From positions 1 to 32,413 of the forward strand of contig JAEKKP010000093.1 of NCBI GenBank assembly GCA_019510315.1: 32,413 nucleotides of DNA, read 5' to 3'. Positions 764 through 26,992 of the stretch are shown in pieces. How positions within the stretch are numbered: position 1 is the stretch's first letter; each line of letters starts with the position of its first letter. The notes under the pieces were generated by a model. It made no database searches. It saw only the letters and a program-made list of their open reading frames with translations, and was not told the origin of the DNA. Origin of the DNA: Propionibacteriales bacterium (GTDB lineage: Bacteria; Actinomycetota; Actinomycetes; Propionibacteriales; Nocardioidaceae). The translations under genes and the position numbers were made by a program.

Positions 764-1181
764 AGTTGCCGATCGGCGCGTAGCCCTCGCCCTCGTAGAA
801 CGCCATCGCGTGCTGCTGGCGCGGACCGGTGTCCATCCGCGCCACCGAGAAGCCGAGCTCTCGAGCGGCATCCTCCAGCGCGTGCAGCAGCGCCCGGGCG
901 ACACCTCGGCGGCGCGCGTCGGGCACCACGTACATGCGCTTGAGCTCGCAGGCGCCGTCGGGGAGCCGCTTGACCCCGCCGCAGCACACCGGCCGGCCAT
1001 CGGCGTACCCGACGAGGAAGGCGCCGCCGGGAGGACCGAGATCGTCCGGGCCGGCGGTCGGCATGCCGGGAGCGCCGAGGTCGAGGCCGTCGTACAGCTC
1101 GGCCATCTCGAGGGCGAAGGCCGCGATCAGGTCGCCACCGTCGCCCGCGTCGACACGGCCGGGTCGGAACTCGACCTGCAT
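714..1181 (-). CDS. GNAT family N-acetyltransferase
   Basis: 155 aa with GNAT core 'LKRMYVVPDARRRGVARALLHALEDAARELGF'; ATG overlaps the ctaB TGA (ATGA). Confidence 0.85.
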   Translation of the reverse strand: MQVEFRPGRVDAGDGGDLIAAFALEMAELYDGLDLGAPGMPTAGPDDLGPPGGAFLVGYADGRPVCCGGVKRLPDGACELKRMYVVPDARRRGVARALLHALEDAARELGFSVARMDTGPRQQHAMAFYEGEGYAPIGNFNANPAASWWGEKALA

Positions 1182-2122
1182 CAGCGGGTGAGCAGGGGGT
1201 CCAGCGCGACGGCGACGAAGAGCAGCGAGAGGTACATGTTCGACCAGTGGAACAACCGCATCGGCTTGATCACGCTGAGGTCGTCACTGCTGCGGGCCCG
1301 GTGCCACATCAGGTGCGCCTCCACGAGGAACGCCGCGCCGAGCACCACTGCAGCGACCGGGTAGACCGCACCCGTGTCGGCCACCGGCCAGAGCGCGAGC
1401 GACACCGCCACCATGACCCAGGAGTAGGCGACGATCTGCTTCGCCACCTCCTCGCCGGAGCGGAGCACCGGCAGCATCGGCACGTCGACGGCGGCATAGT
1501 CCTCGCGGTAGCGCATCGCCAGCGCCCAGGTGTGCGGTGGCGTCCAGAGGAACACGACGAGGAACAGCACGACCGGCGGCCAGGCCAGCTCGCCGGTGAC
1601 GGCGGTCCAGCCGATGAGGGCGGGGAAACAACCGGCGAGGCCGCCCCACACGATGTTCTGCGTCGTACGACGCTTGAGCACCATCGTGTAGACGAAGAGG
1701 TAGAACGCCGATGCGGCGAGCGCGAGGCCGGCGGAGAGCCAGTTGACGAAGAGGCCGAGGACGACCGTGGACAGCACCGCCAGCCCGAGGCCGAAGACCA
1801 GTGCCGCCCGCGGGGAGACCATGTGCCGCGGCAGCGCCCGGCGCCGCGTGCGCCGCATCTGCTCGTCGATGTCGCGGTCGTAGACGCAGTTCAGGGCGTT
1901 CGCGCTCCCGGCCGACAACGTGCCACCGAGGACCGTCGCCACCACGAGCCCGAGCGGCGGCACGCCACGCTGCGCGTAGAACATCACCGGGACGGTGGTG
2001 AGCAGCAGCAGCTCGATGACCCGCGGCTTCATCAGTCCGATGTAGGCCGCCGCGATGTCACGCAGCGTCGCGGCCCGGGCCAGCGGTCGCGAGACCGAAA
2101 CCTGGGAGTCGACCGCGGTCAC
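1181..2122 (-). CDS. ctaB: Protoheme IX farnesyltransferase (heme O synthase)
   Basis: UbiA-type motifs [24 protein letters not shown] and '[26 protein letters not shown]'; GTG start at 2122 chosen inside the longer 1181..4606 open frame. Confidence 0.9.
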
Positions 2123-2290
2123 GCAAGGCCTCGATTCGGGGGACGGCAGCCGCGCGCGGGGCGGGTGCATGAGGGCGCGCACGGGTGGTACTGGCTCGCT
2201 GAGTCTAACGGTCCGTGAGTAGGCTCGTTGCGGGTGGCCCGCCACGGTCTCCCGCCCCCTACTCGCCCCGCATTTCCCGAGAGGACTGCC

Positions 2291-4414
2291 TTGAGCGACA
2301 CCCGCACCCCGTTGGAGTGGACCGAGCTCGACCAGCGTGCGGTGGACACCGCGCGATGCCTGGCGATGGACTCGGTCCAGAAGGTCGGCAACGGCCACCC
2401 CGGCACGGCGATGAGCCTCGCGCCCGCGGCGTACCTGCTCTTCCAGAAGAGGATGCGGCACAACCCGGCCGACCCCGCCTGGCCGGGCCGCGACCGCTTC
2501 GTGCTGTCCTGCGGACACTCCTCGATCACGCTCTACACACAGCTGTACTTCGGCGGCTTCGGCCTCGAGATCGAGGACCTCAAGGCGCTGCGCACGTGGG
2601 GCAGCAAGACACCGGGTCACCCCGAGCACGGCCACACCGCCGGCGTGGAGACGACCACCGGTCCGCTGGGTCAGGGCGTCGGCAACGCGGTCGGCATGGC
2701 GATGGCAGCGCGCCGCGAGCGTGGCCTGTTCGACCCCGACGCGGCCGCGGGCGAGAGCCCGTTCGACCACCACATCTACGCGATCTGCTCCGACGGCGAC
2801 CTCGAGGAGGGCGTCAGCTCGGAGGCCTCGAGCATCGCCGGCCACCAGCAGCTGGGCAACCTGACGCTGATCTACGACGACAACCGGGTCAGCATCGAGG
2901 GCGACACCAACATCGCCTTCACCGAGGACGTCGCGAAGCGCTACGAGGCCTACGGGTGGCACGTGCAGACCGTCGACTGGACCAAGGACGGCGACCACAC
3001 CGACGGCGCGGGCTACCACGAGGACGTGCCGGCCCTGTGGAAGGCGCTCGACAGGGCAGAGGCCGAGACGGCACGGCCGAGCCTGATCGTCCTTCGCACG
3101 ATCATCGCGTGGCCGGCGCCGCACGCGCAGAACACCGGAGCGGCCCACGGCTCGGCGCTGGGTGCCGACGAGGTGGCGGCGACCAAGAAGGTCCTCGGCT
3201 TCGACCCCGACAGGACCTTCGAGGTCTCCGAGGAGGTCATCGACCACACCCGCAGCCTCGTCGACCGCGGCAAGGTCGCGGAGGCGGAGTGGGACGAGCA
3301 GTTCGGTGCCTGGGCCGCCGCGCATCCCGAGCAGAAGGCGCTCTTCGACCGGATGTCGACCCGCCAGCTGCCCAGCGGCTGGGCCGATGCGCTGCCGTCG
3401 TTCCCCGCCGACGAGAAGGGGATGGCCACCCGCAAGGCGTCCGGCTCGCTCCTCAAGGCGATCGCGCCCGTCCTGCCGGAGCTCTGGGGCGGTTCGGCCG
3501 ACCTCGCCGAGTCCAACAACACCACCCCCGAGGGACAGCCGAGCTTCACCCCGGAGGAGTGGCAGACGAACTCGTGGAGTGGCAGCAAGTACGGCCGCGT
3601 GCTGCACTTCGGCATCCGCGAGCACGCCATGGGCTCGATCATGAACGGCATCACGCTGCACGGCGGCACGCGCGTGTACGGCGGCACGTTCCTCGTCTTC
3701 TCCGACTACATGCGACCGGCCGTCCGGCTCGCCGCGCTGATGCAGATCCCCACCATCTATGTGTGGACGCACGACTCCATCGGGCTCGGCGAGGACGGTC
3801 CGACCCACCAGCCCGTCGAGCACCTCGCGGCGCTGCGGGCGATCCCGGGTCTGGACGTCGTACGTCCCGCCGACGCCAACGAGACGGTCGTCGCCTGGCG
3901 CACGATCCTCGAGCAGACCGATCGGCCGGCCGGGCTGGCGCTGACGCGCCAGAACGTCCCGACGTACCCGCGCGGAGAGCAAGGCTTCTCCACCGCCGAC
4001 GACGTCGCCCGGGGCGGCTACGTGCTCATCGACAGCGAGGGCCTGCCCGACGTGGTGCTGATCGGAACCGGCTCGGAGGTCCAGCTCGCCGTCGCCGCCC
4101 GCGAGCAGCTCGCTGCGAAGGGCGTCAAGGCGCGCGTGGTCTCGATGCCGTGCCGCGAGTGGTTCGACCGCCAGGACCAGGCCTACCGCGACACCGTCAT
4201 CCCGCCGAACGTGCGCGCCCGGGTCAGCGTGGAGGCCGGGGTGGCGCAGGGCTGGCGCGAGGTCGTCGGCGACGCCGGCCGGATCGTCTCGCTCGAGCAC
4301 TTCGGCGCCTCTGCTGATTTCGACACCATCTACCGCCAGTTCCACATCACCGCGGAGGCCGTCACCCTGGCCGCCGAGGAGAGCCTGCGCGCCCTGGAGG
4401 CGACGACCCGCTAG
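2291..4414 (+). CDS. tkt: Transketolase
   Basis: [49 protein letters not shown]; probable TTG start at 2291 after AGAGGA; the ORF track extends it upstream to 2228. Confidence 0.93.
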
Positions 4415-4454
4415 CACGACACCGCGTCCTGGAGCACGAGAGAGGAAGGACACC

Positions 4455-5564
4455 ATGTCCGAGCACCTGAAGGAGCTGTCCGAGGCAGGAGTCTCCATCT
4501 GGCTCGACGACCTGTCGCGCGAGCGGCTGGAGACCGGCAACCTCGTCGACCTGAAGAAGAACTCCTCGGTGGTCGGCATCACCAGCAATCCGTCGATCTT
4601 CGCCAAGGCCCTCGAGGAGGGCGAGCGGTACGACGCCCAGGTCCGCGAGCTCGTCGGTCAGGGCGCCGACCTCGACACGGTGATCGAGGAGCTGACCACG
4701 ACCGACGTCCGCAACGCCTGCGACGTGTTCATGGACGTGTTCGAGGCGACCGACGGCGTCGACGGCCGGGTCTCGATCGAGGTCAACCCCGGCCTGGCCC
4801 ACCAGACGGAGGCCACTCTTCGCCAGGCGGAGGAGCTGTGGCGCAAGGTCGACCGGCCCAACCTCTACATCAAGATCCCCGGGACCAAGGAGGGCTGGCC
4901 GGCGATCGCCGAGACCCTCGGCGCCGGCATCCCGGTCAACGTCACCCTGATCTTCGGCCTCGACCAGTACCACCACGTCATGGAGGCCTACGTCGACGGT
5001 CTCGAGAAGGCGCGAGCCGCCGGCCACGACATCTCCAAGCTGCACTCCGTGGCCTCCTTCTTCGTCTCCCGCGTCGACACCGAGATCGACAAGCGCCTCG
5101 AGGCCTCGGGCGCGCCGGCAGAGCTGTTCGGCAAGGCCGGGATCGCCAACGCACGGCTCGCGTACAAGGCGTTCGAGGAGTTCTTCGTCGGTGAGCGCTG
5201 GGAGGCGCTCGTCGCTGCCGGTGCGAACCCCCAGCGCCCGCTGTGGGCGTCGACCGGCGTGAAGAACCCCGACTACCCGGACACGATGTACGTCGTGGAT
5301 CTCGTCGTCCCCAACACCGTCAACACGATGCCGGAGCCCACCCTTCACGCCGTCGCCGACCACGGCGAGATCAAGGGCGACCAGGTGCACGGCTTCTACG
5401 ACGACGCGGCCGCCGTGTTCGCCGCGCTGAAGGACGCCGGCGTCGACTACGACGACGTGATCGAGGTCCTGATCAAGGAGGGCGTCGAGAAGTTCGTCAC
5501 GGCGTTCGACGACCTGACCGCGACGGTCGAGAAGGCGACACAGCAGGCCGGCGCGGGCCGTTGA
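4455..5564 (+). CDS. tal: Transaldolase
   Basis: [56 protein letters not shown]; purine-rich RBS upstream. Confidence 0.95.
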
Positions 5565-24741: not shown

Positions 24742-25509
24742 ATGACCTCTCCGAGCCCGGACCCCAGCAACGAGACCAGTCCCATGGAGGCCGTCGAGGC
24801 CCTTCACCAGTCCGAACAACGTCTTCTGCGCACCGTCGATTCCCTGCGCCCCGACGCGTACGCCGAGCCGTCCGTCCTCCCCGGCTGGACCCGCGGCCAC
24901 GTGGTCGCCCACCTTGCCCTGAACGCGGAAGGGCTGGCCGGTGCGGTCGACGGTCTGGCCCACGAGCGCGACGTACCCATCTACGAGTCCGACGACCGCC
25001 GCAACAGCGACATCGAGGAGCTCTCCGGCGCTGACCCGTCGGAGATCCGCGAGCGTCTGTTCGCTGCCGGCCAGGCGCTGCGCGACGCGCTGACCTCGCT
25101 CGACGAGGAGCAGTGGGCCGGCTCCGTCCACCGCCTGCCCGGAGGTCCGGTGCTGGCCATGGCGACCATCCCGGAGACGCGGCGCCGGGAGGTGGAGATC
25201 CACCACGCGGACATGGACGCCGGCTACGGCCACAAGGACTGGCCCGAGGACTTCCGGATCGCGCTCCTCGACCTGGTCACCGGCGACCGTGCGGCCGACC
25301 CGGGCTCCCCCGTCTTCACCGTCCGCGCCACCGACACCGTCCGCACCTGGAGCGTCGGCGCCGAGCAGCCCGTCGTCGACGGCACCGCCGCCGACCTCGC
25401 CTGGTGGCTGGTCGGCCGCGGCACCGGCGGGGGCCTGACCTGCGACAGCGCCGAACTCCCTAGGCTGGGCCCATGGCGACGTACGCAGGCCCGTACTCAG
25501 GCGAGGTGA
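24742..25509 (+). CDS. Maleylpyruvate isomerase N-terminal/DinB-like (mycothiol-dependent) family protein
   Basis: EALHQSEQRLLRTVDSL...PSVLPGWTRGHVVAHLALNAEGLAGAVDG and ETRRREVEIHHADMDAGYG motifs. Confidence 0.85.
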   Translation: MTSPSPDPSNETSPMEAVEALHQSEQRLLRTVDSLRPDAYAEPSVLPGWTRGHVVAHLALNAEGLAGAVDGLAHERDVPIYESDDRRNSDIEELSGADPSEIRERLFAAGQALRDALTSLDEEQWAGSVHRLPGGPVLAMATIPETRRREVEIHHADMDAGYGHKDWPEDFRIALLDLVTGDRAADPGSPVFTVRATDTVRTWSVGAEQPVVDGTAADLAWWLVGRGTGGGLTCDSAELPRLGPWRRTQARTQAR

Positions 25510-26105
25510 CGCCCGGCGGCACACCGGACGTGCGCGAGCTCAGCAAGCTGATCATCACCAAGGTCGCCGTGGACCCGCAGATGTCGAACAACTGCTACGT
25601 CCTCCGCTGCCGGGCGACGGACGAGCAGGTGCTCATCGACGCCGCCGACGACGCTCCGCTCCTCGTCGAGGTGCTCGGTGTCTCCGGAGCGTCCAAGGTG
25701 ATCACCACCCACCAGCACTGGGACCACCACCGTGCCCTGAAGGCCGTGACCGAGCGCACCGGCGCCGTCACCGTCGCGGGCCGGGCCGACTCCGCCGCGA
25801 TCACCGAGCAGACCGGCGTCGCGATCGACGATCAGGTGGAGGACGGCGACACCGTCGAGTTCGGCGACGCCCGGCTCCAGGTGATCCACCTCGTTGGCCA
25901 CACGCCCGGCTCGATCGCGCTCCTGTACGACGACCCCGACGGCACGCCGCACCTCTTCACCGGCGATTCACTGTTCCCCGGTGGCGTCGGCAACACGTTC
26001 GGCGACGAGGGCGCGTTCCGCTCGCTCATCGCCGACGCCAGGTCGCGGACGATCGACCCTGCCGGACGGATGTCCTGGATCCGCGACACGGTCTCGCCGG
26101 CATAG
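25473..26105 (+). CDS. MBL-fold metallohydrolase, C-terminally truncated
   Basis: THQHWDHHRAL, GHTPGSIALLY, LFTGDSLFPGGVGNTFGDEGAFRSLIAD, then an unrelated tail ARSRTIDPAGRMSWIRDTVSPA; usual '...VYPGHG...' C-terminus absent. Confidence 0.75.
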   Translation: MATYAGPYSGEVTPGGTPDVRELSKLIITKVAVDPQMSNNCYVLRCRATDEQVLIDAADDAPLLVEVLGVSGASKVITTHQHWDHHRALKAVTERTGAVTVAGRADSAAITEQTGVAIDDQVEDGDTVEFGDARLQVIHLVGHTPGSIALLYDDPDGTPHLFTGDSLFPGGVGNTFGDEGAFRSLIADARSRTIDPAGRMSWIRDTVSPA

Positions 26106-26992
26106 AGCGGAGCGGTCTCGAGGACCCGGTCCGGCACGTCGCCGACCGCCGGCACCGGCGCGAAGAACGGGATCGCAACTGCCTGGTGCCCGAGCAGCCA
26201 GCCCTGCACGGACTCCGGTCCCCGCGCCATGACAGGTCGAGCCAGCCGGTTCGCCAGCCGGACGACCCGCGGTCCCCTCGGATCACGCCCCAGCCATCTC
26301 CGCGTGGCGGCGTTCGGCAGCACGCGATGGGCGCCGGGCCAGCCGACGCCGAAGAGCTCGGTGAGCACGGTCTCCGAGCCTTCGACCAGACGCCGCTTGT
26401 AGCCGGGTGCAGCACCGCTCTCCTCCGACATCAGGAAGCGAGTCCCGCAGACGGCGGCGACGGCACCGGCGTCCAGGACGCGTACGACGTCGTCAGGGCC
26501 GGCGATCCCGCCTGCCACGAGCAGCGGACATGGGTCGGGCAGCGCGGCGCGGGCCGCCGCCAGCAGCTCCAGCGCAGGCATGGCGCCGCGTACGTGCCCG
26601 CCGGCCTCGACGCCCTGCAGGATCACGGCATCGGCACCGGCAGCACGCGCGGCGAGTGCCTCTTCGACCGATCCGGCCTGATGGATCCACGGCTTGGCGG
26701 ACCAGCGCCGGGGCCGGCCCCAGAACGTGACCACGACGTCCGCCTCGGCGGCCGGACCGGCGTGACCCGGGCGCGCGAAGGGGAGGAGCAGGTTGATTGC
26801 GATCGGCCGCTGCGTGCGTCGGCGCGCCGCAACGAGCTGGGCGCTCATCCGCGACGGGCTCGCCATCCCGATCGTGCCGAGCCCGCCGGCCTCGGACACC
26901 GCCGCCGCCAGGTCGGGCCCCGAGATTCCGCCGCCCATCCCCGCCTGGACGATCGGCAGCTCGACACCAAGCTCGTTCAGGAAATCGTGCAC
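25832..26992 (-). CDS. Nitronate monooxygenase / 2-nitropropane dioxygenase-like FMN protein with aberrant C-terminal extension
   Basis: LPIVQAGMGGGISGPDLAAAVSEAGGLGTIG, VILQGVEAGGHV, VAGGIAGPDDVVRVLDAGAVAAVCGTRFL; the last ~70 aa are antisense to the MBL gene. Confidence 0.82.
   Translation of the reverse strand: MHDFLNELGVELPIVQAGMGGGISGPDLAAAVSEAGGLGTIGMASPSRMSAQLVAARRRTQRPIAINLLLPFARPGHAGPAAEADVVVTFWGRPRRWSAKPWIHQAGSVEEALAARAAGADAVILQGVEAGGHVRGAMPALELLAAARAALPDPCPLLVAGGIAGPDDVVRVLDAGAVAAVCGTRFLMSEESGAAPGYKRRLVEGSETVLTELFGVGWPGAHRVLPNAATRRWLGRDPRGPRVVRLANRLARPVMARGPESVQGWLLGHQAVAIPFFAPVPAVGDVPDRVLETAPLYAGETVSRIQDIRPAGSIVRDLASAMSERNAPSSPNVLPTPPGNSESPVKRCGVPSGSSYRSAIEPGVWPTRWITWSRASPNSTVSPSST

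Follow-up and report, generated by a model that had tools for sequence, protein, structure and literature searches.

A probable small deletion between convergent MBL-fold and NMO-family genes accounts for a 274-bp antisense overlap beside uvrA

Long overlaps between convergent genes that arise by stop loss have already been described (PMC2478687), and the origin of gene overlaps has been modelled as well, by stop-codon mutation (PMC2174442). In a survey of convergent overlaps longer than 60 bp, 124 of 178 cases were judged to be errors or 3' extensions, leaving 54 that were possibly real (PMC2478687). In the model as described, it is mostly a single stop that is lost, by mutation, deletion or frameshift (PMC2478687, PMC2174442). 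The locus analyzed here differs in that both stops appear to have been lost together, by one deletion, and in that one of the two partners is also truncated. As in the described cases of stop loss, the two genes differ from their orthologues at the 3' end only, and an intact, non-overlapping pair is present in relatives.

The window (the whole stretch of DNA analyzed, 32,413 nucleotides) is a contig (C253) from a 2.59-Mb Propionibacteriales assembly that is divided into 300 contigs and is 75% complete. Judging from the translations and from the features of the families, we take the gene order to be uvrC and uvrA on the minus strand, followed by a DinB/maleylpyruvate-isomerase-like gene and an MBL-fold gene on the plus strand and by a nitronate-monooxygenase (NMO)-family gene on the minus strand; beyond the latter lie what are presumably psd and pssA (plus strand) and then kshB and kshA (minus strand). 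The MBL-fold ORF (25473..26105, plus strand, 210 aa) and the NMO-family ORF (25832..26992, minus strand, 386 aa) overlap tail to tail by 274 bp, exactly as the initial annotation of this DNA had reported. An intact convergent NMO/MBL pair, lying between the ksh genes and uvrA, is found in two genomes of the same family, G313 and G256 (loci L187 and L188). The genes, their orientation and their position are those of the window; in G313 and G256, however, both genes are full length and end at their own stops.

The MBL-fold protein carries HQHWDHH at residue 80, GHTPGS at residue 142 and GDSLFPGG at residue 164; the HxHxDH motif, the downstream His (GHT) and the Asp (GDS) of functional GloB-like MBL-fold metallohydrolases are thus all present. 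It matches the Pfam family Lactamase_B with 53.8 bits (cut-off, 22.7), and the nearest solved structures are hydroxyacylglutathione-hydrolase-like proteins (2xf4). In protein searches, the matches of relatives stop at residues 187-191 of the window protein, inside longer open frames. The kept core comprises codons 1-188 (25473..26036, plus strand) and is followed by a run-on of 22 codons and a TAG stop (26037..26105, plus strand) that reads antisense NMO sequence. What the core lacks is a conserved tail, about 40 residues long and exemplified by LPDETWFYPGHGNDSTLGAERPHLAEWRERGW, with a YPGHG motif and a final W, which is present in all of the 30 intact MBL relatives read (29 ranging from genus to order, plus Nocardioides pelophilus). 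The residues conserved in these tails (V, F, LPD, T, YPGHG, LG, RP, W, RGW) are missing from the window protein after codon 188. The loss includes the C-terminal PGHG segment of functional GloB-like MBL-fold metallohydrolases, which none of the 30 relatives lacks. In the MBL fold, the last metal ligand is usually the His of PGHG and, for this reason, the window protein, deprived of the ligand segment and of the end of the fold, is most likely inactive. The tail does not seem to have been displaced: a six-frame reading of the whole window contains no YPGHG, a search beyond the NMO gene and elsewhere in the window gave no convincing match, and no second close MBL copy was detected in the genome, the next best match being 34% identical.

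The core itself bears no trace of decay. None of the 56 columns invariant among relatives is changed over residues 7-188, and the dN/dS value between the window and the nearest relative, G007, is 0.22, no higher than between intact pairs. Measured from outgroups, the core of the window is, on average, just marginally more distant than that of G007. Mycobacterium tuberculosis Rv1637c is a possible counterpart of this protein; a search of the literature on Rv1637c yielded nothing useful.

The NMO-family protein matches PF03060 over the full-length domain (122.7 bits; cut-off, 28), and its nearest solved structures are FabK/NMO enzymes (2z6i and others). It scored 87.1 bits against the FabK equivalog TIGR03151, below the cut-off of 453.1, and so is not identified as FabK by that profile. 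The homologues, with identities of up to 74%, can be aligned to residues 1-316 and finish 0-8 residues past the SIVRDLA of the window protein (about residue 319, down to 26036-26038). Since the homologues stop so soon after this motif, the gene (residues 1-319, 26036..26992, minus strand) would have lost little beyond its stop, a few residues at the very most, being otherwise essentially complete. The frame then continues for 67 codons and a stop through antisense MBL sequence (25832..26035, minus strand), a stretch that is absent from homologues. In the predicted structure, confidence is high up to about residue 320, and residues 339-386 are unstructured. The gene is conserved to a degree similar to that of the MBL core (dN/dS of 0.18 relative to G313). 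The enzyme most likely works with a disordered 67-residue tail.

The comparison with G313 defines the point at which the two genes were joined. There, the TGA of the MBL gene and the TAG of the NMO gene are separated by 13 bp. (In G256, an alpha/beta-hydrolase-like frame lies between the two full-length genes.) Two blocks of the window align to G313; they abut in the window, whereas G313 has 149 bp more between them. This places a strandless junction at 26036..26041 with about 149 bp fewer than in the intact layout. A breakpoint scan against G313 put the best switch point at 26038-26040, and per-position conservation shifts from MBL-like to NMO-like across 26037-26040. The initial annotation had proposed that both frames change character at about 26035-26048, the MBL frame passing into antisense NMO sequence and the NMO frame continuing for some 70 residues as antisense MBL; alignment to homologues upholds each of these points, and close homologues of either protein do not share the C-termini seen here. 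A frameshift that had left the MBL tail in another frame was ruled out, as the sequence from 26037 onward matches NMO 3' ends and not the MBL tail. Searches of the junction for a structured RNA, a promoter or a terminator were negative. The NMO gene was found in none of 23 other members of the genus, and an ancestor with the intact pair is therefore unseen within the genus.

The length of the two run-ons bears on whether the overlap is maintained. Among intact MBL relatives, 62% have no stop for 66 codons or more in the antisense phase used by the NMO frame (67 codons in the window). In the opposite direction, the MBL phase would be closed after exactly 22 codons, the length found in the window, by 10 of 12 NMO homologues; the reason is a TAG that lies opposite the conserved LYAG codons. 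On these counts, the length of the overlap is what chance gives; it follows from the join, and no selection is needed. It could be imagined that the overlap is kept because both chimeric proteins are produced and serve a purpose, the C-terminus of the MBL protein having been replaced and the NMO protein bearing an antisense-derived tail. The openness of both frames, and an MBL core that is undamaged and ordinarily constrained, would agree with this. Such a function is nonetheless very improbable, given open tails that match chance expectation, an NMO tail predicted to be disordered, the disappearance of PGHG and the other conserved tail residues from the MBL protein, and the absence of the junction from all 30 relatives for which the end of the MBL gene was read.

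We favor, with a probability of roughly 0.7, an explanation in which one deletion of about 150 bp joined two convergent genes, leaving the MBL gene as a fresh pseudogene, the NMO gene encoding a complete enzyme with a floppy tail, and an overlap devoid of function. The ancestor would have carried a tail-to-tail pair as in G313, with the MBL-fold hydrolase gene beside uvrA and the NMO-family flavoenzyme gene facing it. A single deletion would have taken about 40 last MBL codons and the stop, the spacer, and the NMO stop with at most a few codons; each frame would then read through the opposite gene in antisense up to the next chance stop. As consequences, the MBL protein would be inactive and its gene newly a pseudogene, the NMO protein would be complete apart from a floppy 67-residue tail, and the overlap would have no function of its own. 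That the MBL tail, the spacer and the NMO stop were lost is shown by the comparison with relatives; the exact length of the deletion in the window's own lineage we infer. The initial annotation had likewise invoked one deletion between convergent genes that removed both natural stops, a proposal to which the intact pairs and the missing 149 bp lend support. The damage, as judged from the alignments, is lopsided: about 40 residues and a metal-ligand motif are gone from the MBL protein, as against the stop and no more than a few residues from NMO.

Against a deletion are the facts that the junction occurs in a single assembly and that the intact pair is not seen in other members of the genus. 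Because the MBL core is undecayed and its dN/dS not raised, either the event was very recent or the assembly is in error, unless the protein keeps some role. In the case of an error, both genes would be intact in the organism, about 150 bp having been dropped or reads from two strains having been joined. The fragmented and incomplete state of the assembly, the single observation of the junction and the lack of decay in the MBL core all fit such an origin, which we consider unlikely but a good deal more credible than a functional overlap. The genes compared between the rest of the contig and G007 are collinear and near full length, which is mild counter-evidence to a generally faulty contig, and no long repeat likely to mislead an assembler was seen at the junction position in the G313 layout, although the true local sequence may differ.

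Gene content around the MBL gene varies among relatives. In G022, psd directly follows the MBL gene, and in G007 (L192, 6502-8677) a different long reading frame occupies the psd-MBL gap, in the place taken by NMO in the window; from these arrangements, the gap looks prone to frequent gene gain and loss. In G078 (L190, 5363-7096), NMO lies on the other side of the MBL gene, between it and uvrA, and diverges from it; by this comparison, NMO and MBL have met in more than one arrangement. In G021 (L203, C159:75500-82500), one homologue of this MBL gene is broken into two parts over positions 1004-5305, with the N-terminal part at about 5148-5305 and the C-terminal part at 1004-1442. The two parts flank an intact second MBL copy (4110-4790, minus strand), together with an ATPase of the ParA/AAA_31 type and a protein that has a SIR2 domain and resembles the Thoeris defence protein ThsA.

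Unless the assembly is in error, the locus is a case of ordinary gene damage, another stop-loss overlap between convergent genes, for which the intact reference is unusually clear, and not a new system. It provides a clean example of how a small deletion between close-packed convergent genes can give rise to a long antisense overlap and leave both proteins with chimeric ends, and a reminder that such overlaps usually reflect damage or assembly error rather than design. If real, the deletion suggests that at least one lineage can dispense with this MBL gene, which is linked to uvrA and widely conserved.
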